In this document: one piece after another, positions 13,541-30,157 of the stretch
Numbering within the stretch: the first letter of the stretch is position 1
Layout: each line of letters starts with the position of its first letter
NCBI RefSeq assembly: GCF_025698965.1
Contig: NZ_JAILWL010000008.1
Location: forward strand, 1 to 35,223
Source: Roseibium sp.
GTDB taxonomy: Bacteria > Pseudomonadota > Alphaproteobacteria > Rhizobiales > Stappiaceae
Length of the DNA stretch: 35,223 bases
Direction of reading: 5' to 3'
The notes under the pieces: model-generated
Databases searched by the model: none
The model's input: only the letters and a program-made list of their open reading frames with translations
Told to the model about the DNA's origin: nothing
Program-made: the position numbers and the translations under genes

Positions 13541-13570
13541 AAAACAAAAGAGGGCCGCAATGCGGCCCTC
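13541..13570 (-). terminator. Rho-independent terminator of the 31-codon gene
   Basis: On the minus strand a perfect 9-base stem GAGGGCCGC / GCGGCCCTC with an ATT loop (13570-13550) is followed by TTTTGTTTT. It begins about 30 bases after the stop codon of the small gene and would insulate the nuclease gene downstream. Confidence 0.88.
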
Positions 13571-13600
13571 CCATGAGATCTACGTGACTTGATGTCCGGA

Positions 13601-13696: not shown

Positions 13697-13809
13697 GGGC
13701 ACACCTCCTTTCTCTTGTTAACGACACAATTAATGTGAGGCTTTCAAAGCCGCATCACAAGTCCAAAACTTCAAAGATCCCCGTGCAAAACAAACATGTG
13801 AGATATGTG

Positions 13810-14289
13810 TTACTGAGAGGACACAGCCTGATCGGCGATCGTTTGAAACACGTTGTCGAGTTCTGCGGCCAGTTCAGCCAGAGCATCTCCGCCTTCTTCC
13901 ATGTAAGGCGCGAACACGAATCCGGGCGTTTTCCACGAGAGCGTCGCCGTGCCGTCACTGTTTTCGGTAACGTAGAATCGGATCGGGGCTTCAATGCCGG
14001 CGGCAATGGATGCCTCCAGCATCCGCAGCGCATAATCATTGCGGTAGACCCCGACGATCCGGTTCCCCGGGATCGTGATGCCACGCCCCTTGGCGCCGGC
14101 GGATGCACTTGCCTGCGTGACGAGCAACATCTTCTGCGCCTTTACCGCCGTTTTCAGATCTTCAACAAGATTGCCATAACTCTTGGTCGTGGGGACGACC
14201 TGCCAGCCTTCACGCGGCGAAACACTGTCCGCTCGGGTGCTTGCTGTTGCGAGCGAAAGCAGGAATATGAAACTTGCAAAAAGGCGCAT
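13810..14289 (-). CDS. DUF302 family exported protein
   Basis: 159 residues. Residues 1-20 form a signal peptide (MRLF, hydrophobic core, cleavage near TRA/D), so it is periplasmic or surface-exposed. The remainder matches the DUF302 pattern: an initial strand, a helix with YGNLVEDLKTAVKAQKM, then GITIPGNRIVGVYRN and the core APIRFYVTEN with a final helix. The function of DUF302 is not established; such proteins often sit with sulfur-oxidation or rhodanese genes. Here a YeeE/YedE sulfur transporter gene ends 73 bases upstream on the same strand, so an operon for sulfur-compound handling is plausible. A GGGAG ribosome-binding site precedes the ATG by about 8 bases. Confidence 0.85.
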   Translation of the reverse strand: MRLFASFIFLLSLATASTRADSVSPREGWQVVPTTKSYGNLVEDLKTAVKAQKMLLVTQASASAGAKGRGITIPGNRIVGVYRNDYALRMLEASIAAGIEAPIRFYVTENSDGTATLSWKTPGFVFAPYMEEGGDALAELAAELDNVFQTIADQAVSSQ

Positions 14290-14362
14290 GAACTGGACTC
14301 CCGGTGGCCGGCTTGAAGATCACAGTCAATTTACCGATCCCGAAATCACGCGTATTTCACAT

Positions 14363-15535
14363 TCAGGTGTGCGCCTTTGAAGGCTGTTCCATCCCGAACC
14401 GCACCCTGAGACGGGTCCCCAGAAGGCTGCCGAGAAAGCCGAAAACCAACCACAACCAACCATGCAGGGACCCCGAGACGAGACCTCCAAGATATGCCCC
14501 GATGTTGCAACCATAGGCGAGACGGGCCCCGTATCCCATCAGCAAGCCGCCGGCAATTGCGGTCAGAACGTCTCTCCGGCCCAATTGCCAGACCGGCGCG
14601 AACCTGCCAGCCAGTGCAGCCGCGATCATCGCACCCAGAATGACGCCGAAATCCATCACCGATGTCGTGTCGCGCAGAACTGAATTTTCCAGCGCACTGC
14701 GCTGCCAGGTCCAGTAGGGCCAGGTGTCCACCGGAATGCCCAGCGCATGAAACAATTTGCCGCCCCACAGCGCAAATGCGGAGGTGATCCCCCAGGGTCT
14801 GCCGACAACAACAAACGTCGCAATCCCCACAAGCGCCAGCATCACCGCGCCCAACATTGGCGACCAGGGGCCAGCCAGAAACGACCCCGTTCTTCGCAAA
14901 GGGGCAATGTCGCCGTGAGCACCGCGCTCGATGCGAAGTGTCGCCCATGCCAACATCCCCAAAACCAGGGCCGTAAGCAGAAAGGCACCATGGGGCCCGA
15001 ATTCGCGGATAATCGACACGGGCGGCAGTTTCGGCAGTTTCCCCCACACGTGAAGATGGGCGGTGGCAACGACCGAGCCGAGAATGAAGGCGGTCAGCGT
15101 GATCATCATCCGTGTGGAGCCGCCACCGGCTGTAAACAATGTACCGGAGCCACAGCCGCCACCCAGTTGCATGCCGATACCGAACATGAAAGCGCCAAGT
15201 GCTGCTGCCACCCCGAAAGGAAAGACGAAACCGCCCGTCGGCCAACCCAACTGGCTGCCCCAGGCGATCAGGGGAAAGGAAACCGCGCTTGTCAGGAGGA
15301 TGAGCACGAATTGGGCGCGCAGTCCTCCGCCGCGCTTTTCGGTTACGATCCGGCGCCATGCTGCCGTGAAGCCGAAGCTGGCATGATACAGTGACAATCC
15401 CGCAACTCCGCCAATCAGCGTCGCGGCGGCCTGGCGCGGACCGGCCTCCGCATAGGCACCGATCGCAATCAGAAGCAACAGGCAAGCGGCAATTCCGACA
15501 ACGGTTGCTTGCGATCTTTGAACGGTCAACGCCAT
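14363..15535 (-). CDS. YeeE/YedE family (TsuA-like) sulfur transporter
   Basis: 390 residues, almost wholly hydrophobic, with about nine or ten membrane helices. It carries the two family motifs with their essential cysteines: GGGCGSG around C128 and GARLAYGCNIGA around C343. In the thiosulfate transporter TsuA, cysteines in these positions relay thiosulfate through the membrane by brief S-H...S contacts. SFGFTAAWR near residue 53 is another family mark. Import of thiosulfate is therefore the best guess; other reduced sulfur species are possible. AGGGAT precedes the ATG. It is followed by the DUF302 gene and is divergent from the TPR gene. Confidence 0.9.
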   Translation of the reverse strand: MALTVQRSQATVVGIAACLLLLIAIGAYAEAGPRQAAATLIGGVAGLSLYHASFGFTAAWRRIVTEKRGGGLRAQFVLILLTSAVSFPLIAWGSQLGWPTGGFVFPFGVAAALGAFMFGIGMQLGGGCGSGTLFTAGGGSTRMMITLTAFILGSVVATAHLHVWGKLPKLPPVSIIREFGPHGAFLLTALVLGMLAWATLRIERGAHGDIAPLRRTGSFLAGPWSPMLGAVMLALVGIATFVVVGRPWGITSAFALWGGKLFHALGIPVDTWPYWTWQRSALENSVLRDTTSVMDFGVILGAMIAAALAGRFAPVWQLGRRDVLTAIAGGLLMGYGARLAYGCNIGAYLGGLVSGSLHGWLWLVFGFLGSLLGTRLRVRFGMEQPSKAHT

Positions 15536-15740
15536 GAATTGTCATCCCTGAGGCAGCGCCCTGCTCGACGAAAGCAGGCTGCCGATAGTTTCAATTCCAC
15601 CCTCGCATCAGTGGCCATAATTTCGCAATGAAAGTGTCATTTTGTGGCCTACACAATGCCAACACCTTTTTGTGTTTTGCAGTTCATGTGAAGCGTGCGG
15701 AATTTAGGCAGTGACTTTGCATTCAGCTGGATGGCTCCTT

Positions 15741-15755
15741 GATCGATTTTCGATC
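15741..15755. promoter_or_regulatory. 15-bp palindrome upstream of the TPR-OpgC operon
   Basis: GATCGA-TTT-TCGATC lies 40 bases before the TPR start and inside its probable leader. It may be an operator or a small hairpin. A three-codon frame (ATG 15781 to stop 15792) lies between it and the gene. Confidence 0.3.
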
Positions 15756-15794
15756 GGTTCGGGAGGCACAGCTTTGAAACCATGAAGGCCTGAC

Positions 15795-17180
15795 ATGCGT
15801 CTTAGTGACCAATTCGGATTTGACCTTACGCTGACAGACAAGGACGCCCTTGCGTCGTGGAACGCAACCGTACAGGCCTTTCTGGCCCACGGCAAAGAAA
15901 CGCCGACGCATCTGGAAACCTGCCTGCATCTTGCACCCGACTTCGCGCTTGGTCACGCGGCACGTGGCCTGTTCTGCCTCTTGCTAGGACGCAAGGAACT
16001 CAACGCCACCGCTCGAGAGTGCCTGTCCATTGCCCGAACCTCAGCAGAACACACGCCGATCACCGATCGGGAGACCGCTGTTCTCGACGCATTGGGAGCC
16101 TGGCTGCAAGGATTTCCGACAAGGTCTGCCGACATTCTAGACGCAATGCTTGTGAAAGTGCCTGAAGATGCGCTGATCATGAAACTTGTCCATGCCATCC
16201 GCTTCGTGCTCGGCGACTCGGCCGGAATGTACCAGTCCATCGAGCGCATCTATCCCGCGTTTGGAGAAGCGCATCCTGCCTATGGCTACCTCCTCGGCTG
16301 CAGAGCGTTTTCGCTGGAAGAGACAGGGGACTACAGGCAAGCGGAAGCTTCAGGCCGCCGTGGTCTGGAATTCGCCCGTGACGATGCCTGGGGACTTCAT
16401 GCGGTTGCCCATGTGCATGACATGACCGGACGGTCCGAAGAAGGGGCCGGCTGGCTGGAAAATCATCCGGACGGTTGGGCTCACTGCAACAATTTCGGCT
16501 ATCACGTGTGGTGGCACCTTGCGCTGATGTATCTGGATCAGGGCCAGGCCGACAAGGCGCTTGCGCTTTACGATGCCGATATCCGCAAGGACAAGACCGA
16601 CGACTATCGCGACATCTCGAATGCCGCTTCGCTGCTGGTACGGCTGGAGCTTGAAGGTGTGGATGTCGGTTCCCGCTGGGACGAAATCGCCCTGCTTTCC
16701 GACAAACGTGCCGAGGACGGCTGCAATGTTTTTGCCGATCTGCATTATCTGCTGGCGCTTTTGAATGGCGGTCGCCGCATGGGCGCTGACCGGCTGCTCA
16801 CCGGTTTGAAGGAACGTGCAAAACACGAGACCGATATCGGCCGGATCACTGCCGAAGCCGGATTGCCAACCGGTCTGGGTCTGGAACAGTACCGGAAAGG
16901 AAACTTCGCCTCTGCCTTCACATTGCTGACGTCGTCCAGAGACAATCTATACATGGTCGGCGGATCTCACGCCCAACGCGACGTCTTCGAGCGGATCACT
17001 ATCGACGCGGCTTTGCGTGCAGGCTTTTCGACCGAAGCGGAAGTCCTGATAAAGAGCCGCAGCCGCAAACGCGGTGCGCTTGACCGGTTTGCCGAGCAAC
17101 GTCTTGAAGTTTGCGATAAGATGCAACGCGCCGAGCAGGTGATGGAAGATGAAAAACTCCGGGCGGCGAATTCGGTCTAA
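15795..17180 (+). CDS. TTC38-like tetratricopeptide repeat protein
   Basis: 461 residues, mainly helical, cytoplasmic (no signal peptide). The central part has the hallmark of the TTC38 family: HAVAHVHDMTGRSEEGAGWL (202-221), then NNFGYHVWWHLALMYLDQG (232-250). The second stretch includes the characteristic H-x-W-W-H motif. TPR-type helical pairs precede and follow it. The biochemical role of TTC38 proteins is unknown. A GAAGG site 6 bases before ATG 15795 supports this start. The next gene, OpgC-like, begins 45 bases after the stop on the same strand, so the two probably form one transcript ending at the 18.5-kb terminator. Confidence 0.88.
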   Translation: MRLSDQFGFDLTLTDKDALASWNATVQAFLAHGKETPTHLETCLHLAPDFALGHAARGLFCLLLGRKELNATARECLSIARTSAEHTPITDRETAVLDALGAWLQGFPTRSADILDAMLVKVPEDALIMKLVHAIRFVLGDSAGMYQSIERIYPAFGEAHPAYGYLLGCRAFSLEETGDYRQAEASGRRGLEFARDDAWGLHAVAHVHDMTGRSEEGAGWLENHPDGWAHCNNFGYHVWWHLALMYLDQGQADKALALYDADIRKDKTDDYRDISNAASLLVRLELEGVDVGSRWDEIALLSDKRAEDGCNVFADLHYLLALLNGGRRMGADRLLTGLKERAKHETDIGRITAEAGLPTGLGLEQYRKGNFASAFTLLTSSRDNLYMVGGSHAQRDVFERITIDAALRAGFSTEAEVLIKSRSRKRGALDRFAEQRLEVCDKMQRAEQVMEDEKLRAANSV

Positions 17181-17225
17181 AGCCTTCCCCGCTCGAAACA
17201 TTGATTGAAATACCCTGGATTTGAC

Positions 17226-18506
17226 GTGAACGTTCATACTCAAGCGAAGCGCCCGCGTGACCCGCGACTGGATTTCTTCCGCGGGATCGGCATGTTTATC
17301 ATCTATGTCGCCCATGTGCCCTGGAACTGGTGGACCCTTTGGATCCCGGCCCGTTTCGGGTTTTCCGATGCGACCGAGATTTTCGTCTTCTGCTCCGGCA
17401 TGGCGTCAGCCATTGCCTTCGGCAAAATCTTCGATCGTCATGGCTGGGGCATCGGAGCTGCCCGTATCCTGCACCGAATGTGGCAGGTCTACTGGGCGTT
17501 TATCGGCCAATTGCTGGTGATTGCCGTTGTCCTGGTGATGATCCACGAAAGCGGTTTCCTAACCAGCTGCTGCGATCTTACGCAGGACTACGTGGTGTCG
17601 CTGAACCTTTGGCACCTTTTCGACAATACCAAGGTTGCCCTGCCCGGTATCATGACAATGACCTGGGTGCCGAACTACTTCGACATCCTGCCGATGTATG
17701 TGGTTATCCTGGCACTGATCCCCGTGATCATGCTGGTCGCCCGTTATTCCGTGCCTGGTGCCTTCGCGGTTTCAATCGGGCTCTGGCTGGCGTCCCAGTT
17801 CGGTTGGCTGGACCTGCCGGCAGAACCGTGGTCAGACCGGGTCTGGTTTTTCAATCCGTTTGCCTGGCAAATGCTGTTCTTCACTGGATTTGCCTTCATG
17901 CGCGGCTGGATCCCGGCCCCGCCGGTCAGCCGAAAACTGGTCGTCTTCTGCATTGCGGTTGTTGTCGTCACAATCCCCTTTGCCTATTTCCGGTTCTACG
18001 GTGCAAATAACTGGGATTTCGTCTGGGCACGTGAAGTGCGCGAATCCATCCGGCCGCTCTGGGTGAAGACCGAGTTCGGCCTCTTCCGCTATCTCCACTT
18101 CCTGGCACTGGCCTATCTCGGCTGGGTGGCGGCCGGAGAACACGGCAAGCGCCTGCTCGGGCACGGTGCCGTGTGGGGCTGGTTCGTCCGGATTGTCCAG
18201 AAAGTGGGCCAGCAGTCGCTTGCCGTCTTCATGGCAAGTCTGGTGATCGCCCAGGCCGCCGGTCTGCTGCGCGACATGGTCTGGGGACGCGGCGACTGGA
18301 TCCCGCAGATCCTGTCAAACCTGTTCGGCTTTGCGGCACTGATTGCGGTCGCCTATGTGGTCGGCTGGTACAAGAGCGAACCCTGGCGCAAACCGCCCAA
18401 GGTTCCACCGACCGGCTCCCCCGACATTCCGGCTCCTACACCCAAGGACACCCGGCAAGAGACCCAGAAGTCCTTGTCCAAGTCCAGCGAGCCCGCTTTG
18501 TCCTAA
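17226..18506 (+). CDS. opgC: OpgC-like membrane acyltransferase-3 family protein
   Basis: 426 residues from GTG 17226; TTG 17205 is an alternative without a better ribosome-binding site. About ten membrane helices are visible. The N-terminus has the OpgC signature: RDPRLDFFRGIGMFIIYVAH followed by RFGFSDATEIFVFCSGM. OpgC proteins add succinyl groups to osmoregulated periplasmic glucans at the inner membrane. The fold is that of acyltransferase-3 proteins and the catalytic histidine is probably H30. The last 40 residues are hydrophilic and proline-rich. The TTC38-like gene upstream is a likely operon partner. No opgG/opgH glucan synthase gene is in the window, so the acceptor is inferred from family only. 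Confidence 0.88.
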   Translation: MNVHTQAKRPRDPRLDFFRGIGMFIIYVAHVPWNWWTLWIPARFGFSDATEIFVFCSGMASAIAFGKIFDRHGWGIGAARILHRMWQVYWAFIGQLLVIAVVLVMIHESGFLTSCCDLTQDYVVSLNLWHLFDNTKVALPGIMTMTWVPNYFDILPMYVVILALIPVIMLVARYSVPGAFAVSIGLWLASQFGWLDLPAEPWSDRVWFFNPFAWQMLFFTGFAFMRGWIPAPPVSRKLVVFCIAVVVVTIPFAYFRFYGANNWDFVWAREVRESIRPLWVKTEFGLFRYLHFLALAYLGWVAAGEHGKRLLGHGAVWGWFVRIVQKVGQQSLAVFMASLVIAQAAGLLRDMVWGRGDWIPQILSNLFGFAALIAVAYVVGWYKSEPWRKPPKVPPTGSPDIPAPTPKDTRQETQKSLSKSSEPALS

Positions 18507-18510
18507 AACA

Positions 18511-18542
18511 AAAACACCGGCCAAAAGGGCCGGTGTTTTTTT
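18511..18542. terminator. Bidirectional rho-independent terminator
   Basis: A 12-base stem, AAAACACCGGCC with GGCCGGTGTTTT, loop AAAAG, and T-run 18536-18542 on the plus strand; the A-run on the left arm serves the minus strand. It ends both the OpgC operon and the Hsp20-DUF1150 operon. Confidence 0.93.
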
Positions 18543-18570
18543 GTAAGGCAGGACGTCAGGAGAGTATCGC

Positions 18571-18855
18571 TTAATGCAGCGATGCCATTTCCAGATCCGC
18601 CTCGAACGCGTTGGCAACAGCCGCCTCGCGACTGTCTGCCAGAAGGATAGGCGTGCCGTCTGCGTTCAACAGGGCATAGAGGGTCATGTTGTCATGCAGG
18701 GGCGGAACTTCCGGGAACATCTCCCGAAGATCGCTTGCCTTGATTGCCTTGATATAAGCGACATCGCCTGTACCAAGTTCCGTCAGTTCATCGACGGACA
18801 TGAATTCGGACAGTTGTATGCGGTCTGCCCAGGCCGGGCTATTTGGGTCGTGCAT
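18571..18855 (-). CDS. DUF1150 family protein
   Basis: 94 residues, acidic and soluble. The pattern TELGTGDVAYIKAI, then a central DNMTLYALLNADGTPILLADS and AVANAFEADL, is that of DUF1150, a small family restricted mainly to Alphaproteobacteria. Function unknown. It is usually next to a small heat-shock protein gene, as here: the Hsp20 gene ends 31 bases upstream. A GGAG site precedes the ATG by 7 bases. It should be co-induced by heat through the promoter at 19.4 kb. Confidence 0.9.
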   Translation of the reverse strand: MHDPNSPAWADRIQLSEFMSVDELTELGTGDVAYIKAIKASDLREMFPEVPPLHDNMTLYALLNADGTPILLADSREAAVANAFEADLEMASLH

Positions 18856-18886
18856 CAGTATTCTCCATCTGTTGGCCGACGAGGGT

Positions 18887-19315
18887 CTATTCGCCGCTGG
18901 AGATTTCTATTTTTCTTATGACACGTTCCGGTTCCGGGCGTGCCAGATCGATGGACAGGAGCCCATCTTTCAGGTCGGCTCCGAGGATCTCGATCCCCTC
19001 AGCCAGGACGAACGCCCGTTGGAACTGCCGAGCGGCGATGCCGCGATGCAGATACTGGCGGGATTTGTCATCAACCTGTCTGCCGCGAATGACCAATTGG
19101 CTCTCCTCAACGGAGACGTCGAGCTGATCTCTTGTGAAACCAGCCACTGCCAAAGTGATCCGGATTATGTCGCCCTGACCGTCGGTTTTCGGCAGTCTTT
19201 CAATATTATAGGGCGGATAACCATCATTGGCAGCCTTGGAAACGCGATCAAGCACACGCTCGATATCGTCGAACCCGAGCATAAACGGGCTAGAAAACGC
19301 TGACATGCGTGACAT
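18887..19315 (-). CDS. Small heat-shock protein, Hsp20/alpha-crystallin family
   Basis: 142 residues from ATG 19315, picked because AAGGA lies 8 bases upstream and the family usually begins close to this point; ATG 19306 and TTG 19321 are alternatives. A short N-terminal arm (1-40, with PYNIER at 35-40) is followed by an alpha-crystallin domain (about 40-137). The domain shows ITLAVAGF, the dimer-loop segment YLHRGIAARQF typical of bacterial class A/IbpA-type proteins, and GLLSIDL. The tail has an I-E-I motif. It is an ATP-independent holdase that keeps unfolding proteins soluble in heat. A sigma-32-like promoter and a structured leader precede it, and DUF1150 follows. Confidence 0.93.
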   Translation of the reverse strand: MSRMSAFSSPFMLGFDDIERVLDRVSKAANDGYPPYNIERLPKTDGQGDIIRITLAVAGFTRDQLDVSVEESQLVIRGRQVDDKSRQYLHRGIAARQFQRAFVLAEGIEILGADLKDGLLSIDLARPEPERVIRKIEISSGE

Positions 19316-19395
19316 CCTCAAAGTCCTTGTCGAAGCGACCTTGCATCCGGACCCTTACAAAGGCATCCGAACTGGAACCTTTCGGCTCCATTCAG
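19316..19395 (-). promoter_or_regulatory. Leader of hsp20, candidate RNA thermometer
   Basis: In the roughly 80-base leader an inner hairpin (GTCG-CTT-CGAC, 19339-19329) is enclosed by GGGTCC (19354-19349) and GGACTT (19326-19321). The enclosing pair would hide part of the AAGGA Shine-Dalgarno. The stem is weak (two G-U pairs, large bulge), as in thermometers. No ROSE consensus was recognised. Confidence 0.3.
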
Positions 19396-19401
19396 TATTA
19401 A

Positions 19402-19430
19402 ATATGGCGACTTGTTAAAATTGATTCAAG
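19402..19430 (-). promoter_or_regulatory. RpoH (sigma-32) type heat-shock promoter
   Basis: On the minus strand CTTGAA (19430-19425) is followed after 15 bases by CGCCATAT (19409-19402). This is close to the sigma-32 consensus CTTGAA - CCCCATNT. It fits the heat-shock gene it precedes. Confidence 0.7.
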
Positions 19431-19493
19431 GAGGATGGCTTTCTGGCCGTTTTCAGCACGGTTTTCCCGACTTTGTTCACAGGTACTCCAGTT

Positions 19494-20351
19494 TCAGAAG
19501 TGTTTTAGTTGCGGATCCTGCTTCAGAAATCGGGCAAGCGCCGAAACCGCCTGACGCACAAGCGGCTCGTGGCGTTCGTCCTGGTGCATTACCAGCCAAC
19601 GTTCCGTCTGCAGGCGATCAATGGGCTCTGAAATACGGACAAGATCCTCAAATGCTTCGCCGACAAACATCGGCAGCAGCATGCGCACCTGACCTTTGCG
19701 CACCAGCGACAGGGCCAAGGAGGCCTTGTTCACTGTGATGGTAATCTCATCACCGTGATTTTCCTTGAGCCAAAGTCCGGTCGGAAAATGGGCTTCGTCC
19801 TCAACAAGCCCGATCCATCCGATCTCGCCATCGGCCGATACGCTTCTCGCCTGATAGGCAGCAAACCTGACCACGCCGATTTTCTGCCCTGCTAGCCATT
19901 CCTGCTTTGGGCGTCGGCTTCGGATACCGATATCGATCTGCCTCCGGGCGACGTCCCTATTGTGCGGGTCGGCCAGGAACTCCGGTACCCAAGCCGCGTC
20001 CGGCATCCAGAACGCGTCAATATTGTCCATCAACAATCGGGTGGTCCAATCTCCGGCCGAAATCCGGACGCGGCGGCGTGTTCTGCCGCTCTCCCGCCAA
20101 GTGGAAATCGAACTGGCGGCCTGATCCATGCCTTCCAGTTGAAGAACCAGCTCTCGCCCCGCTGCGGTCAGCACATAGCCTCGCGCCTCCCGTTCGACCA
20201 GCCGGACATTCAGGCTTCTTTCCAATGACGACACCCGCCGACCGAGCGTTGCCGCGCTGACACCCGTTTTTTCTGCGGCACCAGCAAGACCACCTGCCTT
20301 CGCAACGGCAAGAAACAGTCTCAAATTTTCCCAATCCAGATTTCGTTTCAT
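19494..20351 (-). CDS. LysR family transcriptional regulator
   Basis: 285 residues. The winged helix-turn-helix fills residues 6-65 (WENLRLFLAVAKAGGLAGAA, then SAATLGRRVSSLERSLNVRL). The effector-binding region begins near 90 and is somewhat shorter and less typical than in standard LysR proteins. This resembles the subgroup whose helix starts WDDLRYFLAVAR. It would bind DNA in the region it shares with the divergent small gene at 20455 and probably control itself. The ligand is unknown. The start codon has no clear Shine-Dalgarno. Confidence 0.9.
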   Translation of the reverse strand: MKRNLDWENLRLFLAVAKAGGLAGAAEKTGVSAATLGRRVSSLERSLNVRLVEREARGYVLTAAGRELVLQLEGMDQAASSISTWRESGRTRRRVRISAGDWTTRLLMDNIDAFWMPDAAWVPEFLADPHNRDVARRQIDIGIRSRRPKQEWLAGQKIGVVRFAAYQARSVSADGEIGWIGLVEDEAHFPTGLWLKENHGDEITITVNKASLALSLVRKGQVRMLLPMFVGEAFEDLVRISEPIDRLQTERWLVMHQDERHEPLVRQAVSALARFLKQDPQLKHF

Positions 20352-22385: not shown

Positions 22386-22745
22386 ATGACCCGCGACGAT
22401 TTTGATACCTATTGCAAGCAATTGCCTGCGACCACTCATGTGATTCAGTGGGGCAATGCCTCCGTCTGGAAGGTTGGCGGCAAGATCTTTGCAATCTGCT
22501 CCGGCTGGGGAGAAGGCGACCGTCCACGTTTCAGCTTCAAATGCTCCGACATCTCCTATTCCCTGCTCATCCAACAGGAAGGCTTGATTCCGGCACCCTA
22601 TCTTGCCCGCGCCAAATGGGTGCAGATGGAGGAAGAAGGTGCGCTCTCCGACGAAGACCTGAAAGCCTATATCGAGGCGGCTTACAAAATCATTGCAGGC
22701 AAACTGACAAAGAAAGTTCAGAAAGAGCTTGGTCTTGCTGTCTGA
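22386..22745 (+). CDS. MmcQ/YjbR family protein
   Basis: 119 residues from ATG 22386, the start that matches the family; the open frame extends further upstream but its first 43 codons look non-coding (many Cys, Phe and Ser). It has the family pattern: the N-terminal TRDDFDTYCKQLPATTHV, then VWKVGGKIFAICSG, RFSFKCSD and the C-terminal helix with AYKIIAGKLTKK. The fold resembles the CyaY/DNA-binding double wing. Members are described as DNA-binding, but the role is unclear. The ribosome-binding site is poor. Its 3' end overlaps the MFS gene by 17 bases. Confidence 0.87.
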   Translation: MTRDDFDTYCKQLPATTHVIQWGNASVWKVGGKIFAICSGWGEGDRPRFSFKCSDISYSLLIQQEGLIPAPYLARAKWVQMEEEGALSDEDLKAYIEAAYKIIAGKLTKKVQKELGLAV

Positions 22746-23922
22746 CTTTTCCGGTAAGTGGCGGTCGCTCTCGCTGCTGATGCTGGCCGAGGTCGCTGGA
22801 ATGAGCCTGTGGTTCATGTCGGCGGCAATCCTGCCGGACCTGACGCGCGAATTCGAGATTTCCGAATTCCGTCAGGCTGCACTTTCCAGTGCTGTCCAGA
22901 TCGGCTTCGTCGCCGGAGCTCTTGCTTCCGCGCTACTGGGACTGGCGGACCGGATCGACCCGCGCCGTTTCTTCGCCACTTGCGCCATTCTTGCCGCTCT
23001 CTTCAATGCCAGCCTGTTGGTGGTGGAACCCGGTGGTGATGTTTCGATTTTTGCCCGCTTCGTCACCGGCATACTGCTCGCCGGTGTCTATCCCGTCGGA
23101 ATGAAGATTGCAGTTGGATGGGGCAAGGAAGATCGCGGCCTTCTCGTCGGCACGCTTGTCGGCGCTCTGACACTCGGCTCCGCCGCCCCGCATTTTCTGG
23201 CACTTCTGGGTGGAACCGACTGGCGCTGGGCCTTGAGCGTCGCCTCCATTGCCTCGGCGCTTGGGGGTGTTGCATGCCTCTTCACCGGCCTTGGTCCCTT
23301 TCATGCCCGGGCCCCACGCATGAAACTGAAGGCGGTTCTGACAGCCTGGACCAACCGGAAAATCCGTTACGCATATTGCGGCTATCTTGGCCACATGTGG
23401 GAACTTTATGCCATGTGGGCCTGGATCGGTGTTGCGCTGACAGTGTCATTCTCCGGTCAGATGTCTTCCGACACTGCTCTATCCCTATCCAGGCTGTTTG
23501 CGTTTTTGACAATTGCCGCCGGTGGTGTTGCCAGTGTCGTTGCCGGTTTTGTGGCCGACCGCGTCGGCAAAGCCAATATTGCCATTCTGGCCATGTCCGT
23601 CAGTGGCAGCGCCGCAATTGCCACTGCACTTACCTTTGGCGGCCCGGCCTGGTTGACGACCCTATGCGTGCTCGTCTGGGGCGCGGCCATTCTGCCGGAC
23701 TCGGCCCAGTTTTCGGCACTCGTCGCCGACAATTCACCCCCCGATCAGGCCGGCAGCCTGATGACGTTCCAGACCGCCCTCGGCTTCGCCCTGACCTTCT
23801 TCACAGTACAGCTGACACCCCTTGCAGCCGACTGGATCAGCTGGCCGGGCGTCTTCGTGATCATGGCCATCGGCCCGGCGCTCGGAATTGTAGGAATGCT
23901 GCGGTTGAAACGGCTTTCCTAA
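22729..23922 (+). CDS. MFS transporter
   Basis: 397 residues from TTG 22729 (TTG 22735 is also possible), with about twelve membrane helices and the MFS loop-2/3 pattern GLADRIDPRRFFA (75-87). The first helix carries EVAGMSLWFMSAAILPDL, typical of the CynX/NarK-like part of the superfamily, and a second-half copy of the motif reads FVADRVGKAN. The substrate cannot be read. It overlaps the MmcQ/YjbR gene and must be translated from a start inside that gene. It converges on the next minus-strand gene with only 6 bases between the stops, and no terminator is visible there. Confidence 0.9.
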   Translation: MVLLSDFSGKWRSLSLLMLAEVAGMSLWFMSAAILPDLTREFEISEFRQAALSSAVQIGFVAGALASALLGLADRIDPRRFFATCAILAALFNASLLVVEPGGDVSIFARFVTGILLAGVYPVGMKIAVGWGKEDRGLLVGTLVGALTLGSAAPHFLALLGGTDWRWALSVASIASALGGVACLFTGLGPFHARAPRMKLKAVLTAWTNRKIRYAYCGYLGHMWELYAMWAWIGVALTVSFSGQMSSDTALSLSRLFAFLTIAAGGVASVVAGFVADRVGKANIAILAMSVSGSAAIATALTFGGPAWLTTLCVLVWGAAILPDSAQFSALVADNSPPDQAGSLMTFQTALGFALTFFTVQLTPLAADWISWPGVFVIMAIGPALGIVGMLRLKRLS

Positions 23923-23928
23923 TTCAAC

Positions 23929-24348
23929 TTAAGGCCGGCTCTGAAGTTCGGCGATCACCGCCCGGCGGAACCCCACATAAATCAGCGCGCCAAATACCAG
24001 GTCGAACAGCGCGAAAACCACAAATGGGCCGCCGAAAGACAGAAAGGTGATGACCATCAGCAAGCGTCCGAGAACTGCGACGACATTGGCGTAACGCTGA
24101 TTGATCGGATCGAGGGCACCGGGGACTTGCATCACCGTCACGAAAATCAGCGTCGCCCCCCAGATCGAGGGCCATTGCGGTCCCATGGTGGTCGGTAGTC
24201 CAACCACGCTGAGTGAAAAGCTTGGCAGAAGCAGAAACAAAGCGCCTATGACGATCTGCAGAGCAAGCGCGAGACCGAAGATTCTCCGGTGACGGGAGAT
24301 GAGCGTTTTGGCCTGGGCCTTGGTTGATCCGATGGAGAGGGAATTCAT
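23929..24348 (-). CDS. Small four-helix membrane protein
   Basis: 139 residues from ATG 24348, chosen because GGAG stands 5 bases before it; a longer frame reaches into the cytochrome gene and is not credible. Four membrane helices are visible at about 23-45, 58-76, 86-105 and 108-127. A loop between helices two and three reads ALDPINQRYANV. No family recognised. It begins 14 bases after the cytochrome c gene and is the last gene of the dioxygenase operon, so it may anchor or partner the cytochrome. The family and role are open. Confidence 0.75.
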   Translation of the reverse strand: MNSLSIGSTKAQAKTLISRHRRIFGLALALQIVIGALFLLLPSFSLSVVGLPTTMGPQWPSIWGATLIFVTVMQVPGALDPINQRYANVVAVLGRLLMVITFLSFGGPFVVFALFDLVFGALIYVGFRRAVIAELQSRP

Positions 24349-24362
24349 GTCAGCTCCAATGT

Positions 24363-25883
24363 TCAGAATGTGAGGAGATAGGCCAGCAGGTCCGCCTTGG
24401 CGGTCGCGTCGAGACCGACACCATAGACGTGCCCAGAATTCGAATTGCCGGGCAATCTGGTATCGAAACAATTCGGCATGTCGGGCTCACAGGCAGGCGA
24501 GACAAAACCGCCATTGCCGTCAATGACATCGCCACCCCGCAAAAAGGTGGCCGGCCGGTTTTCCGGTGCTTCGAGAAGGTCCGCGAGTGTCGGAACAGAA
24601 CCGTTGTGTAGATAGGGTCCTCTCAGCCAAAGACCGTCCAACGGTGCATTGGCATAGCCATCAGTTTTGCGGAACCTGCGGAAGGCATGTGGTGTGCCTG
24701 CAAACAGCTTTTCTTTCTGCAGATCGGAAAAAGCCTTCGTGTAGCTGTCCAATCGGGCCGGGTCGGTGCCGATTTCACCGATCAGCTCGACGGTTCCAAG
24801 CTTCGCCCCCTCGAAGACATAACCTTCACTCCCCTGATAGCCGTGGCAGGCAGCGCATTTGTCCATATAGAGCTCACGCCCACGGACGACCGCTTCGGGG
24901 TCCGGCCGGTGAGGGCTTGCCGGTGGTTCGAAATCGGACAACCAGGCTGCGACCCGCTCAATACTGGCGTGGTCTACTGTTTCAGGCGTGACGCCGGCGC
25001 CAAGAGCGGCCGACAGATTGCGTTCGGCAAGACTGTCGTTGTTGCCGTCCCAATGCAGTTGCATTCCCTCGCGCGGACCTTGCAGGAAAATTGAGGGAAA
25101 ATCCGAGGCACCCACGACTTCCGTTTCATCGAGTTCGCTTGCGGCAATGTCAAATTCAAGAACCTTATATGGATTGAACGTGTCCACACGGCCGGGGTTC
25201 CAGTCCGGCTGACGTGCAAGCAGGGGGCGAAGGCGAGCGGCCCGGTCCAGCAATCCTTCCCTGAGCCTGGGGAAAACGGCAAAGCGCCAGATTATCTTGT
25301 CCAGCGGGTCGAGCCCGACCCCTGCTTCCTCCATCGCCGCCATCAATGGCTCGGGTGCAAGTTTCGGATCACCAGAAACATCAATGACCATTTGTGTGAA
25401 TTTGCCGAGATCCAGCGTGTTGGCGGGCATTCCTGACGCCAGGTGCGGGTCGCCGCGCTCCTCCAGCCTGTATCGCCCCGTGTGACATACCGCGCAATTG
25501 AACCAGACAAGATCCACACCCTGCTGTGTGCGCTCGCTGATCCCAATCGGCAGATCGCGGTCGTCTTCATAAAGAAATCCGAAAGTCGAATAGTCCTTGC
25601 GGCCATCGAAATGCTCTGGAAACAGGAAGGGCAAAGCCTTCCAGACCCGATAAGGCAAACCTGACGCCGTTTCCGCCCCGATCGAACCAAAGCGAAAATG
25701 ATCGTCTATGTCCGCGTAGACCGTCGGACCGGACGACATGAACCGGCCGGCGACAGTGGCCAACAGAATGATCGCCAACAGGAACACGACACCCCAAAGC
25801 AGGATCAGCAGCCTCACGATGCGCCCCAGGGGCGACCGGCGGCGACGGGCGAGTTCAGCTTCGACAGCCGTTGGGTAACTCAT
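24363..25883 (-). CDS. Membrane-anchored di-haem cytochrome c
   Basis: 506 residues. A single N-terminal anchor (about 22-46) after a basic stretch RRRRSPLGR holds the protein in the inner membrane with the rest in the periplasm. Two haem-binding sites are present: C130-AV-C133-H134 and C343-AA-C346-H347. The C-terminal half has GLWLRGPYLHNGSVPTLADL (417-436), a signature shared with MauG/cytochrome-c-peroxidase-like and RoxA-like di-haem proteins. It likely passes electrons between a periplasmic or membrane reaction and the respiratory chain. The start ATG overlaps the stop of the reductase gene (ATGA) and is preceded by GGAGG 7 bases upstream. The operon places it with a lipid dioxygenase; the actual donor and acceptor are unknown. 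Confidence 0.88.
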   Translation of the reverse strand: MSYPTAVEAELARRRRSPLGRIVRLLILLWGVVFLLAIILLATVAGRFMSSGPTVYADIDDHFRFGSIGAETASGLPYRVWKALPFLFPEHFDGRKDYSTFGFLYEDDRDLPIGISERTQQGVDLVWFNCAVCHTGRYRLEERGDPHLASGMPANTLDLGKFTQMVIDVSGDPKLAPEPLMAAMEEAGVGLDPLDKIIWRFAVFPRLREGLLDRAARLRPLLARQPDWNPGRVDTFNPYKVLEFDIAASELDETEVVGASDFPSIFLQGPREGMQLHWDGNNDSLAERNLSAALGAGVTPETVDHASIERVAAWLSDFEPPASPHRPDPEAVVRGRELYMDKCAACHGYQGSEGYVFEGAKLGTVELIGEIGTDPARLDSYTKAFSDLQKEKLFAGTPHAFRRFRKTDGYANAPLDGLWLRGPYLHNGSVPTLADLLEAPENRPATFLRGGDVIDGNGGFVSPACEPDMPNCFDTRLPGNSNSGHVYGVGLDATAKADLLAYLLTF

Positions 25884-27217
25884 TGCTGCACCTCCGGAAT
25901 TTTGAGGTCAGCGCGGGTCGAATAGATCGACATCAATTCATCGATCATTGCTTTGCGAGATGGAAAACGGGCTTCTTCATAACAGCCCATCGGATTTTTG
26001 GGCGCATTGACGAGGCATTTGTTGCAATAGGTGCAAGGCCGTTCGGGCACATCTGCCCCGCCGGCCCATTGCTTGACAAGGTCGTTGTTGGCAACAAGCG
26101 AGCGCGCAATGGAGACGGCGTCCAGCTCACCCCGTTCCATGGCACCGCGTATGAAGGACGCGTTCTGATACCCTCCCGTTGAAATTACGGGGATGGAGAC
26201 TGCGTTCCGGATTGCGCGCGCTTCATCCAGACCAACTCCCTCGACCGGGCGGCCTTTCTTCATACGGAACCACATCCAGCGGAATATCGGTCTCAAGGAG
26301 GGATAGCGGAACATCAGGAAATTCCGGAACCCGTGAATGCCACTTGAAATCATGGCGTCATAGGTTACCGCCAGAATTTCCAGCGGCAGGTCTCCCGGTG
26401 GGTTCAGCGGGTGCGGAAAAAGACTGCCGGTTGAAACGTGAAGCGCATCTGCTCCAAGGGCTTCGCACCATTGCGCCACCTGTATGGTGTCAGCCAGCGT
26501 GTTGCCCTTGGATTCCCAAGGCAGGACATTGTTGTGATCGGTCGCCGACAGTTTCACCTGCAGGTGAAAATCTGAGCCAACCGTGTCGCGGATGGCTGCA
26601 ATTACCTCGAGAAGAAATCGGGCACGGTTGCGCAGGGACCCACCATAGCAGTCCGAGCGATCATTGATTGCCGAAGACAGGAACTGAGTGAAAAGATAGC
26701 CGTTGGCCGCGTGCAATTCGATACCGTCAAGTCCTGCTTCCCGGGCTCGCCAGGCAGCGCGCGCAAAGTCGCGCACCATGCGGCGCACTTCTCCCGTCGA
26801 CATCGCCTCTGTCAGAAAACCGTGCAGTGGCTCCGCTCTGGATGTCGCAGAAGGCGTGCGCCGAAGCTGATTGTGTATTCCAGGCAGATCCATCTGTCTG
26901 CCGGAATGGCTGAGCTGAAGGATGTATTTGGCTCCATTTGCCCGCACGGCCTCCCCCAGTTTCGCCCATAGGGGAATGAAGTCGTCCCGGTGAATTGTCG
27001 CGTATCCCGCAATGATGCGTCCATCGAGCCGAACGGGCACGTAGGAGGAGATGATGGCGCCAACACCTCCTCTTGCGAACTTACATTCCCAATTGATCCG
27101 CGTCTGAGAAAGAGAGCCGTCTTCATTGTCAAACCGACCCGATATATTGGACCGGAACACGCGGTTTTTCACAGTCAGGTTCCGGAAATGCAGGGGCTGG
27201 AAAATCGGGTCGGTCAC
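25880..27217 (-). CDS. Old Yellow Enzyme family NADH:flavin oxidoreductase with C-terminal cysteine cluster
   Basis: 445 residues from GTG 27217, decided by AGGAGG located 6 bases before it; the frame runs 22 codons further upstream. FMN-binding TIM barrel: FRNLTVKNRVFRS at the start, QLSHSGRQ (101-108), the proton-donor pair H169-AA-N172 in ELHAANGYL, and PVISTGGY / SIARSLVANNDL for the FMN phosphate. The tail has C395, C398, C401 and C412 in PCTYCNKC...GCYE. In 2,4-dienoyl-CoA reductase a similar cluster binds 4Fe-4S, but the FAD/NAD half of that enzyme is absent here. OYE enzymes reduce activated C=C bonds, such as enals and enones from lipid peroxidation. The GTG overlaps the upstream stop (GTGA). 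Confidence 0.9.
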   Translation of the reverse strand: MTDPIFQPLHFRNLTVKNRVFRSNISGRFDNEDGSLSQTRINWECKFARGGVGAIISSYVPVRLDGRIIAGYATIHRDDFIPLWAKLGEAVRANGAKYILQLSHSGRQMDLPGIHNQLRRTPSATSRAEPLHGFLTEAMSTGEVRRMVRDFARAAWRAREAGLDGIELHAANGYLFTQFLSSAINDRSDCYGGSLRNRARFLLEVIAAIRDTVGSDFHLQVKLSATDHNNVLPWESKGNTLADTIQVAQWCEALGADALHVSTGSLFPHPLNPPGDLPLEILAVTYDAMISSGIHGFRNFLMFRYPSLRPIFRWMWFRMKKGRPVEGVGLDEARAIRNAVSIPVISTGGYQNASFIRGAMERGELDAVSIARSLVANNDLVKQWAGGADVPERPCTYCNKCLVNAPKNPMGCYEEARFPSRKAMIDELMSIYSTRADLKIPEVQQ

Positions 27218-28065
27218 GATTTCCCTCCTGCTGCGATCCAGATCCGGGTGATCATGTGAGGGACAAATGCATGAGCCGGACACCCGCTCCAGGCATCTCG
27301 GAGAAAACCGATCGACGGATCCGGACTGCGCAGCTGTGCTTCCGCTACGTTCAGGATGACAAGCGTTCCCGGTCGGACGCGTCCTGCCAGGGTCTCGGCA
27401 ATCGACGCACCCTGCCGCACGACCCGATCCGGGACAACCAATGCCACCGCGACAACCTGCTCTGCCGGGGTCGACCGGTCGAGCGTGCGCATCGTTTCAA
27501 GCGTTTCGGCGAAATTGTGAACGGCAACGCTGATCGCATGTACCCCACTGCGGTCACCTGCCATGGCACGCGACAGCACCCGTTGCGCCTGATCCAGCTT
27601 GCCGGTCAATCGCGAAAACAGACTTCTGAACGACGGTGTCCCGAGAGATTGGTTTATGGTCTTCGCAGCTTCCCAGGTCTGGATGTCTGCCGCAAAGTCG
27701 GCAACGAAAATTCTTCCGAACAACGTTTGCGCCAGGAGACCGGGGTCTCCCTCGCCCTTCTCGACAAAAGTTGCGCATTGCTCGACCGCGCCGTTCAACG
27801 CCGCGTCCAGATCCGGATCTTTCAAACGCTCGACCAGATCCTTGCGCATCGTGCTCCGCTCACCACTGCCTCTTGGCAGGTTGCTTGGCAACGCCCCCTC
27901 CGGCGTCTTCAGCGTCTGCGCCAGTCGCCGTCGGATCATTCGAACAAGAAGAGGACCACCTTCGTTGCGGCGATCCAGATCCGGATTGTCCGCAAGGCTG
28001 CGTACCAGGGCTGGATCCGACACGCTGATCAGATCGATCAAGCCCGGAATTCTCAGCGACCTCAT
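27214..28065 (-). CDS. Short protein with cytochrome P450-like C-terminal signatures
   Basis: 283 residues from ATG 28065, which overlaps the dioxygenase stop (ATGA). It is not a standard family member. What can be seen: E190-T-M-R193, an ExxR as in the P450 K-helix; then a stretch RVRPGTLVILNVAEAQLRSPDP (229-250) like the P450 strand ahead of the haem loop; then C262 in SGCPAHAF, in the place of the haem-thiolate cysteine. The distance from ExxR to Cys is 72 residues, as in real P450s. The first 180 residues are too short to hold all P450 helices, and no AGxxT I-helix motif is seen. Rearrangement of a hydroperoxide, which needs no redox partner, would suit a protein without that motif. The alternative is an unrelated helical protein. 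The P450 call is inference. Confidence 0.5.
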   Translation of the reverse strand: MRSLRIPGLIDLISVSDPALVRSLADNPDLDRRNEGGPLLVRMIRRRLAQTLKTPEGALPSNLPRGSGERSTMRKDLVERLKDPDLDAALNGAVEQCATFVEKGEGDPGLLAQTLFGRIFVADFAADIQTWEAAKTINQSLGTPSFRSLFSRLTGKLDQAQRVLSRAMAGDRSGVHAISVAVHNFAETLETMRTLDRSTPAEQVVAVALVVPDRVVRQGASIAETLAGRVRPGTLVILNVAEAQLRSPDPSIGFLRDAWSGCPAHAFVPHMITRIWIAAGGKS

Positions 28066-29873
28066 TGCCCCCGTCTCCAGGGAAAGAAGGCGTTGCGCGC
28101 ATCGGCAAATGCAGGTGCCAAGGCCGGACAATGCCGCGTCAGCACCGAAGTGAGGGTGTTGTCCTGCACCCAACGGAAACCGGCTTCCGTGTAGATTTCC
28201 GGCCGAAAATCATCGGTGAAAAACCTGTCCGACTTCAACCGGCGTGAAGCCATGAGAATGAAGATACGGAAGGCCGTGTCGGAGAACCCGAACCTTGGCG
28301 GCTGACCGCGATCAGAGGTGGATTCAGCCAGGCAGCCAACGAGAAGGTCAACGTCTTCGACCTTGCCACCGTAAACTTCCTCCAGTTCCTTCTGCCAAGT
28401 CTCGTTGGAGGTGATGTCCGCAAAGGTTTCCGGCACCTTCATGCCGAGTTGCCGGCGGAATTCGGCAAATCGCGGGACCCCCCGCTCCCGGTCACGCAGG
28501 ATATCAATTGCCGCAAGATCCACGTGGCGCCCGTTTTCCTTGGTCAGATTGCGCAAACCTTCGGGAAAGTTATGCAGGGCAAGCGCGCCGGGATGTTCGG
28601 TGGCGAGAGAATAGACCACATCGTCAAACGGCACTTTTTTATAAAGACCGCTCACCTTGCCCTGACTGACACCCGCCAGGTCCGTGTCGAGAATTCCGAC
28701 GTCATCGCTTGCCTGCCGGAACGAGAATTGGTCCGGCATGAGCGAATGCAGCCTGTAAACGGCGGTGAATTCCTCGGTCATGGCATAGGGCGCACCATGA
28801 TGGTCCTGAGGCGAACCGGGGATGCCGCTGACCACTTCACTGTCGGACAAACGGCCGAAAGTATTGTAATAGCGCTCCCCCATCAGACCCCAGTAATTTC
28901 CGCGCATGGCCATCCGGCCAACGGGACTGTCCATAAGGGCCGGTGTCCATTCGACAGTATGGATCTTGGCGAGAAGCGCTGAAACGACCAGTCTTGCCTT
29001 GTCGAACAGCCAGGCGCCGTCCTTGTCCGGATGATCCAGTTTCAAGCGGTCGACAATCGTGTTGTGCTCACGCGTGAACAGGGTGTGCAGGACGGACAGG
29101 CCAACCCACCAGTTGCCATTGACACCACTAAGTTCCAGGTTGGGCACGCCTGACGCCTTGTCGATCGGCAGCAAACCCTGTTTGGTCAGCGCGAGTTTTC
29201 CATCCGGCAGGATGTCCTTGCCTGTGCCTTTCCGCACCGCTTCCAGACGCTGTTCGGACGAACCATAAATCTGGGATCCGTCCCACCAGTGGGTTTCGGT
29301 GTTTATGAAAGCATCGGGCCGGTTCTTGTCTGACGGACCTTCAGGCGCGCGCCGGGTTCTGAGAACCTCCATTTTGCCGTCTGGCCAATCGTCGCCTTCG
29401 GGCAACGGTATCTTGAAGGGTTCGGCGTCCTTGTCGTTCTTGCCGTGACTGAGCCAGTCATGAACCATGAACTGGATCCATGCCGCCGCAAGAACGTTGA
29501 GATGCGGTACCGGCGTGAATTCCTTGCGCGCAAGCAGGCGGTTGGAAATGAGCCTTGGCGACGGGACCATCAACCTGTCGTCTTCCCGCTCGCCAAAGGC
29601 AGATTTCAATGGAACGTTTCGGCCGAACCGGGAATTTGCCATGCCCATCCACGGCCTGCCGAGATCGTTATGGCTGCCTGCCACGGTTCGCGCGCCGACG
29701 ATATCCGTGTCCGGTGTCGGCGGCGAAGGCGGGTCTGTTTCGGTGTCGATCAGGTTGTTGGCTCTCAAATTGCCGCGGTTGCCCACGACGATTGCCAACG
29801 CCAGAACGAAAGGCCATTTAAACCAAACAATATACGGCTCTGTCAGGCGAGCCAGCGATCTGAGAAATAGCAT
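28062..29873 (-). CDS. Fatty-acid alpha-dioxygenase-like haem peroxidase
   Basis: 603 residues, the length of plant alpha-dioxygenases, which use haem and O2 to put a hydroperoxide at C2 of a fatty acid. Distal haem histidine H138 in WIQFMVHDW; WWDGSQIYG (196-204); WWVGLSVLHTLFTREHN (255-271); IHTVEWTPAL (304-313). The motif Y373-R-L-H376 equals the catalytic Tyr and proximal His pair of cyclooxygenase, separated by two residues. RDRERGVPRF (460-469) is the peroxidase-cyclooxygenase signature. The hydrophobic N-terminus (about 12-32) probably touches the membrane. No signal peptide. It is the first gene of the operon; the weak ribosome-binding site (GAG) is the only start evidence. Linoleate-type dioxygenases are relatives, so regiochemistry is not certain. 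Confidence 0.88.
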   Translation of the reverse strand: MLFLRSLARLTEPYIVWFKWPFVLALAIVVGNRGNLRANNLIDTETDPPSPPTPDTDIVGARTVAGSHNDLGRPWMGMANSRFGRNVPLKSAFGEREDDRLMVPSPRLISNRLLARKEFTPVPHLNVLAAAWIQFMVHDWLSHGKNDKDAEPFKIPLPEGDDWPDGKMEVLRTRRAPEGPSDKNRPDAFINTETHWWDGSQIYGSSEQRLEAVRKGTGKDILPDGKLALTKQGLLPIDKASGVPNLELSGVNGNWWVGLSVLHTLFTREHNTIVDRLKLDHPDKDGAWLFDKARLVVSALLAKIHTVEWTPALMDSPVGRMAMRGNYWGLMGERYYNTFGRLSDSEVVSGIPGSPQDHHGAPYAMTEEFTAVYRLHSLMPDQFSFRQASDDVGILDTDLAGVSQGKVSGLYKKVPFDDVVYSLATEHPGALALHNFPEGLRNLTKENGRHVDLAAIDILRDRERGVPRFAEFRRQLGMKVPETFADITSNETWQKELEEVYGGKVEDVDLLVGCLAESTSDRGQPPRFGFSDTAFRIFILMASRRLKSDRFFTDDFRPEIYTEAGFRWVQDNTLTSVLTRHCPALAPAFADARNAFFPWRRGQ

Positions 29874-29931
29874 TTTTATTACTCAAATTCTGAAAAAACT
29901 CTCCCCCCAATTTTTAATGCTAACCTAACGT

Positions 29932-29957
29932 AACTTCCTACGCAACCAAAGGAAGTT
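29932..29957. promoter_or_regulatory. Inverted repeat upstream of the dioxygenase operon
   Basis: AACTTCCT (29932-29939) and AGGAAGTT (29950-29957) with a 10-base spacer. It lies 59 bases before the ATG of the dioxygenase and just downstream of the candidate start of transcription, where a repressor or an RNA hairpin could act. Confidence 0.4.
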
Positions 29958-29988
29958 CAGATAAAACTCTGATACCTATCATTGTTGC

Positions 29989-30017
29989 ATTTAAGTAAAA
30001 TTGCGGAGACTTTCCAA
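29989..30017 (-). promoter_or_regulatory. Candidate sigma-70 promoter of the dioxygenase operon
   Basis: On the minus strand TTGGAA (30017-30012) and TTAAAT (29994-29989) are 17 bases apart, giving a leader of about 110 bases. The surrounding region is AT-rich. Confidence 0.4.
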
Positions 30018-30157
30018 GCCAGGATCAGAGAGGTTGGGAAGCACATTTTCAGGCCGGCGCCAATCATTGAGCGCGATGCAAGTTCACCGTCTAGTTCATG
30101 TTCCTTCAGGGCACCTTGCACAGTCTGGCGCAGCTCCCATGTCGAACTTGCTGCCGG

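Follow-up and report, generated by a model that had tools for sequence, protein, structure and literature searches.

The jasmonate pathway of plants combines a lipoxygenase (LOX), a CYP74 allene oxide synthase (AOS) and an Old Yellow Enzyme (OYE) of the 12-oxophytodienoate reductase (OPR) type. Bacterial alpha-dioxygenases (alpha-DOX) are known as biocatalysts, and in the literature searched nothing was found on the pathway that they serve. According to PMC8720084, alpha-DOX occurs in five bacterial phyla, and N-terminal extensions were trimmed there up to alignment position 368. Nostoc has a 10S-dioxygenase (10S-DOX) with a separate catalase-related lyase and fungi have fusions of a DOX with a cytochrome P450 (CYP) (PMC13049297), and corals have AOS-LOX and hydroperoxide lyase (HPL)-LOX fusions (PMC5617202). 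Herein, we describe a five-gene cassette led by an alpha-DOX gene at positions 23929–29873 of a 35,223-nucleotide (nt) stretch of Roseibium sp. DNA (contig NZ_JAILWL010000008.1; hereafter the window). We consider it somewhat more probable than its negation that the cassette is a lipid-hydroperoxide pathway, self-contained and spread by horizontal transfer, whose dioxygenase product is transformed by the protein of gene 2.

Like the fungal DOX-CYP fusions (linoleate diol synthases and their relatives), the cassette places a peroxidase-fold dioxygenase before a P450-fold partner, which uses the hydroperoxide in fungi and probably does so here. However, the genes are separate here, the dioxygenase is an alpha-DOX and not a linoleate DOX, and the partner is a mini-P450 of 283 amino acids (aa) without an ExxR motif, so the likeness in order is one of analogy. 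With the jasmonate pathway, the cassette shares a dioxygenase, a putative hydroperoxide P450 and an OYE as a set, but the dioxygenase is another one, no cyclase was seen, the OYE is of the 4Fe-4S type, and a di-haem cytochrome is added. The Nostoc 10S-DOX/lyase pair and the coral fusions resemble a second operon type, described below, in having a catalase-related partner of a fatty-acid dioxygenase, although the dioxygenase is a 10S-DOX or lipoxygenase there and an alpha-DOX here, with the catalase-like domain fused to it or adjacent. By analogy, the cassette looks like a bacterial counterpart of the plant and fungal lipid-signal pathways. The features of the locus are as follows.

28062–29873, minus strand: gene 1, alpha-dioxygenase (603 aa), from Pfam An_peroxidase and Protein Data Bank (PDB) matches
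27214–28065, minus strand: gene 2, P450-like mini-protein (283 aa, presumed to bind haem), ATGA overlap, from the predicted fold
25880–27217, minus strand: gene 3, OYE-type flavoenzyme (445 aa), GTG start, GTGA overlap, from Oxidored_FMN
24363–25883, minus strand: gene 4, membrane-anchored di-haem cytochrome c, RoxA/FadCcp-like (506 aa), ATGA overlap, from RoxA-like_Cyt-c
23929–24348, minus strand: gene 5, four-segment integral membrane protein (139 aa), after a 14-nt gap, from hydropathy
29874–30157, minus strand: upstream region of the cassette, 5′ of the DOX gene, presumed promoter
23923–30157, no strand: accessory insertion of ~6.2 kb between the 3′ ends of convergent major facilitator superfamily (MFS) and HEAT-repeat genes, from flank alignments

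A preliminary description of this DNA had proposed a five-gene operon here, and its coordinates, the ATGA, GTGA and ATGA overlaps and the 14-nt gap were all as it gave them. The enzyme families that it named were borne out overall, by profile matches and, for the P450, via the predicted fold, and its logic of a dioxygenase working with a haem protein and a flavoenzyme is supported. Shine-Dalgarno-like GGAG or AGGAGG sequences lie ahead of each of genes 2–5. No sigma-70-like promoter was found in the upstream region (29874–30157).

The cassette is real, conserved and accessory. Contigs were scanned for DOX relatives, and the best 80 of 471 were kept, giving 81 loci (numbered with L below) with the window; the set therefore leans to close relatives. 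Conservation of the gene order in relatives, on which the preliminary description had staked its reading, was observed: all five genes stand in the same order on one strand at 38 of the 81 loci, indicating that the grouping is not due to chance, though only 2 of 36 other genomes of the genus carry this cassette type. The carriers of the full order are mostly Alpha- and Gammaproteobacteria, comprising three Rhodobacterales, two Labrys, three Caulobacter, Ensifer, Rhizobium, Neoroseomonas, Elioraea, three Roseibium (window included), 15 halomonads, two Ectothiorhodospira and six metagenome-assembled genomes (MAGs; one labelled Burkholderiales and one Anaerolineae). Median spacings between successive genes were 5, −4, 36 and 19 nt, and two DOX-P450 spacings (−886 and −334) seem to be artefacts of how the start was chosen. 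Pairwise protein distances of the five genes covaried across the 38 loci (Spearman 0.52–0.84), and after 14 of the 15 halomonads were removed, the correlations in the 24 remaining loci were 0.40–0.65 (Mantel p 0.001–0.004). Other arrangements also occur: five loci keep the DOX and membrane genes but have neither the P450-like nor the di-haem gene, some have only the DOX and P450-like genes, and in cyanobacterial L107 and L114 the P450-like gene is missing but OYE, di-haem and membrane genes are present. Beyond the five genes, the proteobacterial cassettes showed no recognisable conserved neighbour; most of the large clusters were shadow open reading frames.

For sampling independent of the DOX gene, a gene 2 profile, itself built from DOX-adjacent rows, was used on evenly drawn sets of 240 class and 398 phylum genomes. 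It matched 2 and 4 genomes, respectively, with the window included in both. All four non-window genomes had a DOX gene directly upstream; three carried all five genes and the fourth only the DOX and P450-like genes. Two of the four are probably the same as L041 and L063 of the 81-locus set.

The insertion site was compared in four relatives. In two of them, the ends of the flank alignments are separated by ~33 and ~51 bp, compared with ~6.25 kb in the window, and these represent the empty site; the third has ~532 bp between the flanks, and the fourth shows no right flank in the stretch. The empty sites indicate that the gain, or loss, of the cassette involved the five genes and their upstream region as one piece. 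Its borders are narrow, and the five genes are the sole genes of the insertion. No recombinase lies within it, although no search aimed at recombinases or at inverted or direct repeats at the borders was made. In the two other Roseibium carriers, the cassette and the left flank are on different contigs, and the window DOX is 71–72% identical to Rhodobacterales copies versus 65% to the other Roseibium copies. The cassette was presumably transferred horizontally. Its G+C content of 57.5%, against 56.2–56.4%, does not mark it as foreign. The convergent MFS gene at 22729–23922 was considered as a sixth member but not accepted: it is part of the genus backbone, and relatives with the empty site have it too.

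Gene 1 matches Pfam An_peroxidase with E 1e-107. Its best PDB chains are 4kvj (“fatty acid alpha-oxidase”, E 2e-107) and 4hhr (“alpha-dioxygenase”, E 8e-105), which we take to be plant alpha-dioxygenases, whereas animal peroxidases and cyclooxygenases are far weaker matches (1.8e-29 and worse). Residues H138, H305, T310, Y373, H376 and R544 were invariant in 92 of 92 homologues, after 4 of 96 rows had been dropped (the duplicate loci L025 and L026 and two half frames of L076). They presumably represent the distal His, the catalytic Tyr, the proximal His and the His, Thr and Arg of the carboxylate pocket; Y373 is aligned to the Tyr that is replaced by Phe in chain 4kvl. The plant and cyanobacterial alpha-DOX proteins (4kvj, 4hhr, CalDOX) are homologous over residues 16–599 and share the same haem, tyrosine and carboxylate-pocket residues, but the cassette enzyme sits in an operon with four dedicated partners. 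Judged by its sequence, gene 1 is a plant-type alpha-dioxygenase. Two observations on related proteins may be added. The DOX of a MAG contig is broken into two frames (L076:915-2705), and the Roseibium genome of the window and several genus members have a second, distant animal-type haem peroxidase (L018, G000:C79:17756-18520; a 699-aa frame, 33% over a part), which is not a full-length alpha-DOX match.

Gene 2 had no family match in Pfam or NCBIfam. The PF00067 profile matched neither the window copy nor eight relatives, and the two PF00067 matches of this genome lie elsewhere. An AlphaFold2 model from 30 sequences reached a predicted local distance difference test (pLDDT) score of 93.3 and a predicted template modelling (pTM) score of 0.90. 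When this model was compared with the PDB by Foldseek, 181 matches were obtained at E up to 0.001, and the best 50 of the 181 were P450s, 46 of them by title; the four untitled ones (FrazP2 twice, DoxA and TylHI) are presumably P450s as well. The best match had E 3.6e-6, a template modelling (TM) score of 0.58 and a root-mean-square deviation (rmsd) of 7.7. As modelled, gene 2 has a P450 fold in a chain of 283 aa, versus 354–428 for the matched P450 chains. The name “P450-like protein” in the preliminary description is thus upheld by the predicted fold and has to be narrowed to a very small, ExxR-less relative, visible only by fold.

P450s usually keep ExxR, the helix K motif; a conserved ExxR was sought in the gene 2 family and found absent. 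The residue counts, for which 2 of 52 rows were dropped (L025 and L026), showed Pro212 and His176 in 50/50, Arg217 in 45/50 (otherwise Lys) and His183 and Asn184 in 45 each. Pro212 and Arg217 fall in the region corresponding to the ExxR part of helix K, and His176, His183 and Asn184 lie within the long helix 172–193 of the model. Cys262, present in 49 of the 49 rows reaching its column (one row is short), stands directly before the last long helix, where the P450 thiolate ligand would be, suggesting that the protein may bind haem. The relatives are 30–46% identical to the window copy, and no DOX-P450 fusion gene was found among the profile matches (open frames 305–331). A literature search for minimal or ExxR-less P450s gave no fitting title. 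Five cyanobacterial mini-P450 relatives near a DOX (L083, L086, L096, L101 and L093), four of them divergent, have FxxGSSERxCVFKDF round the cysteine, closer to the classical P450 loop. Their FxxG…CVFKDF look, which resembles the CYP74 loop, prompted us to consider CYP74 membership, for which the profile search of PDB chains gave no support.

The gene 3 product has an FMN barrel (Oxidored_FMN, E 7e-62) and a 4Fe-4S-type CxxCxxCx10C motif, in which Cys395, Cys398 and Cys401 are kept in 48/48 rows and Cys412 in 47/48 (5 of 53 rows were dropped: L025, L026 and three short ones). It shares the barrel and the four cluster cysteines with FadH/BaiCD-type OYEs, but at 445 aa versus 641–645 positions in those models it lacks the C-terminal NAD(P)H/FAD domain. 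The family assignment “Old Yellow Enzyme” therefore stands, refined to a 4Fe-4S type in which the NAD(P)H domain is missing.

Gene 4 matches Pfam RoxA-like_Cyt-c (E 4e-14), and its family profile finds the RoxA chain 4b2n with E 1.9e-23. It has CxxCH at 130 and 343 and a single N-terminal hydrophobic segment at 26–44. Across the family, with 4 of 76 rows dropped (L025, L026 and two short ones), CxxCH is kept in 72/72, and W278, equivalent to RoxA Trp302, in 64/72, with Phe in the other 8. As stated in PMC4496055, Trp302 of RoxA is the inter-haem bridge, and FadCcp proteins are di-haem enzymes acting on fatty acids. The likeness to RoxA and FadCcp (the Pseudomonas 10S-DOX and 7,10-diol synthase) thus lies in the di-haem c family and the mostly kept Trp302 equivalent. 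By contrast, Phe317, essential for rubber cleavage in RoxA, is replaced by Ala (53/72) or Asp (19/72), and the RoxA and RoxB models have 673 and 652 positions versus 506 aa for gene 4. With the NF040606 model, gene 4 scores 139 against a cut-off of 150, and 21 of 25 family members, the window copy not among them, reach E 1e-43, which is about the cut-off. The preliminary description had regarded gene 4 as an electron carrier. Since the protein is RoxA/FadCcp-like, this has to be corrected: it is more probably an oxygenase or peroxidase than a protein that just carries electrons.

Gene 5 shows four hydrophobic peaks in the hydropathy plot, in line with the four-helix membrane protein after 14 bases that had been proposed. 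It had no family match in Pfam or NCBIfam, and its family is found beside the di-haem gene or the DOX. In halomonads (L059–L071, L074 and L077) and also in L095, a second, divergent pair of di-haem c and membrane genes lies just upstream of the DOX, indicating that the pair behaves as a module.

In 7 of 36 other Roseibium genomes, another operon type encodes a 958–975-aa protein with a catalase-like domain N-terminal to the alpha-DOX, followed by a RoxA-like gene. The catalase-like domain was assigned by Pfam on one of the seven and by the family profile on all seven; its matches to catalases have E 4e-6 in the PDB, with 3e4w at 1e-4, and 1e-11 to 4e-6 in Pfam. A Rhizobium phaseoli plasmid carries the same fusion and RoxA-like gene, and a Phyllobacterium plasmid carries the fusion with the di-haem gene absent from the stretch, so that a RoxA-like di-haem gene follows the N-terminal fusion in 8 of 9 loci. 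Besides these nine, the catalase-like domain is fused C-terminally at one locus (Mycolicibacter L108), adjacent at three (Nocardia and Mycobacterium L099, L105 and L115) and ~3–5 kb away at four, in cyanobacteria and a Chloroflexi MAG (L094, L097, L098 and L110). The nine fusion loci also have a 199-aa membrane gene in eight cases and a 487-aa gene in all nine; the latter looks by eye like a flavin reductase or nitroreductase (RRTHR, AMGLGAW). Neither gene (L027–L033, L023) had a Pfam match, and the 487-aa gene also had no PDB match. The P450-like gene (49 loci) and the catalase-like gene (8 loci) occurred together at none of the 81 loci, for which the chance is ~3e-4 assuming an independence that the loci do not have. 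P450-like and catalase-like proteins apparently fill the same slot beside the same dioxygenase. If the genes are what they seem, both operon types would fill the same roles partly with unrelated proteins.

A ~305–310-aa cyanobacterial family also lies near alpha-DOX (L107:3812-4741, L112, L114, L094, L097, L098 and L021), with no family or PDB match and a pLDDT of 46. A 309-aa cyanobacterial partner had looked catalase-like by eye, which PDB profile, hhalign and fold (pLDDT 46) did not support.

The following route is proposed. Judging from its family and residues, the DOX would work at the inner membrane face, where it would form a 2-hydroperoxide by adding O2 to C2 of a free fatty acid or a similar carboxylic acid. 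The mini-P450 would take this hydroperoxide directly, without a reductase, and dehydrate, isomerise or cleave it, like CYP74 and the fungal DOX-linked P450s. Its fold, cysteine and missing ExxR and the pairing with the DOX point to this step, as does its replacement by a second family, of a kind known for hydroperoxide chemistry. The 4Fe-4S OYE, as its family suggests, may then reduce or dehydrogenate the carbonyl or unsaturated product, with electrons arriving via the cluster and not directly from NAD(P)H. In the weakest step, guessed from family, the periplasmic RoxA/FadCcp-like enzyme would oxygenate or peroxidise the product again, and gene 5 may be a partner of the di-haem enzyme or a passage for the product. 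The oxylipin role, the fatty-acid substrate and the products are putative.

Several points weigh against this route. Profile searches of PDB chains with gene 2 found no P450, and hhalign of gene 2 to 30 ordinary P450 proteins was not significant (probability 0 to 5%). Together with the negative Pfam and NCBIfam results, this led us to reject gene 2 as a proven P450 at the sequence level; the link comes from the predicted fold only (best TM 0.58, rmsd 7.7). The full order is missing at 43 of the 81 loci, some through contig ends, and 21 of the 81 DOX loci have none of three tested partner families in the stretch examined, so the DOX may work without them. L051 has, besides the P450-like gene, a relative of the 487-aa gene seen in the catalase-type operons, indicating that the two operon types are not wholly separate. 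Moreover, the DOX has no clear export signal, whereas the di-haem enzyme is expected in the periplasm; the route would thus require transport.

Other explanations for the cassette were weighed on the same data. A catabolic alpha-oxidation, in which fatty acids would lose one carbon through the DOX by way of the aldehyde and the remaining genes would clear hydroperoxide, aldehyde and electrons, would fit the fatty aldehydes that characterised plant and cyanobacterial alpha-DOXs yield (PMC8720084), as well as the TPP (thiamine diphosphate)-dependent enzymes or patatin-like lipases near some other DOX loci. However, genes for an aldehyde dehydrogenase, a CoA ligase and a lyase are all missing from the five of the insertion, the proteobacterial cassettes showed no other recognisable neighbour family in common, and neither the OYE nor the RoxA-like enzyme would be needed; we regard it as rather unlikely. 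It is quite improbable to us that gene 2 is a non-enzymatic, degenerate P450-fold scaffold or a regulator of the dioxygenase: the missing ExxR, the short chain (283 versus 354–428 aa) and the fast evolution (30–46% identity to the window copy) would suit such a role, but Cys262 (49/49), His176 and Pro212 (both 50/50) are kept, and gene 2 is absent wherever the haem-catalase-like partner is present instead (0/8). The patchy, accessory spread (gene 2 in 2/240 class and 4/398 phylum genomes, window counted) and the names of several carriers, which suggest saline or plant habitats, might also speak for defence or detoxification. The cassette would then destroy algal or plant fatty acids, lipid peroxides or electrophilic oxylipins, with the OYE quenching enals and the haem proteins peroxides. 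Yet the conserved first enzyme, with all checked dioxygenase residues kept, should make and not remove hydroperoxide, and such a role seems distinctly improbable.

Elsewhere in the window, positions 1–19990 match 37 of 37 genus genomes (its own included), the others at 68–85% DNA identity in the rows listed, indicating that the contig belongs to the genus and that contamination is unlikely. Positions 2695–4311, part of the genus's conserved backbone, encode a TPP-dependent enzyme in which each of the three Pfam domains is present. At 8533–13281 lies the gene of a 1582-aa protein that combines RTX repeats with cadherin-like and Ig domains and has a weak match to an endonuclease/phosphatase.

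Our PubMed Central (PMC) search, in which most subscription papers lay outside coverage, found no paper on this gene set. In the available text, “operon”, “gene cluster” and “P450” are absent from the main text of PMC8720084, and “operon” and “fusion” from PMC9305512. The cassette is apparently undescribed in the literature searched; its enzyme families are already known, and the combination and the mini-P450 are new relative to the libraries used.

Since this five-gene unit has narrow borders and occurs in cultivated species, the transfer of 6.2 kb would be enough to test the pathway. The unit also contains a P450-fold protein, as modelled, that is clearly shorter than its matched 354–428-residue chains and was missed by Pfam and NCBIfam, and the P450-like and catalase-like proteins in apparently the same slot offer a natural case for studying the recruitment of hydroperoxide enzymes. 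A bolder reading, which we hold possible though short of probable, is that bacteria own a mobile, hormone-style oxylipin pathway starting from C2, in which the alpha-dioxygenase would pass its 2-hydroperoxide to a minimal P450 that needs no reductase and represents a family not yet recognised. In a parallel operon type, the recipient would be a fused catalase-like domain; the product would be completed at the cell surface by a RoxA-like enzyme. If this C2 pathway is true, it would add one more independent case, after plants, fungi, corals and Nostoc, in which a fatty-acid dioxygenase has been paired with a hydroperoxide enzyme of the P450 or catalase-like kind.

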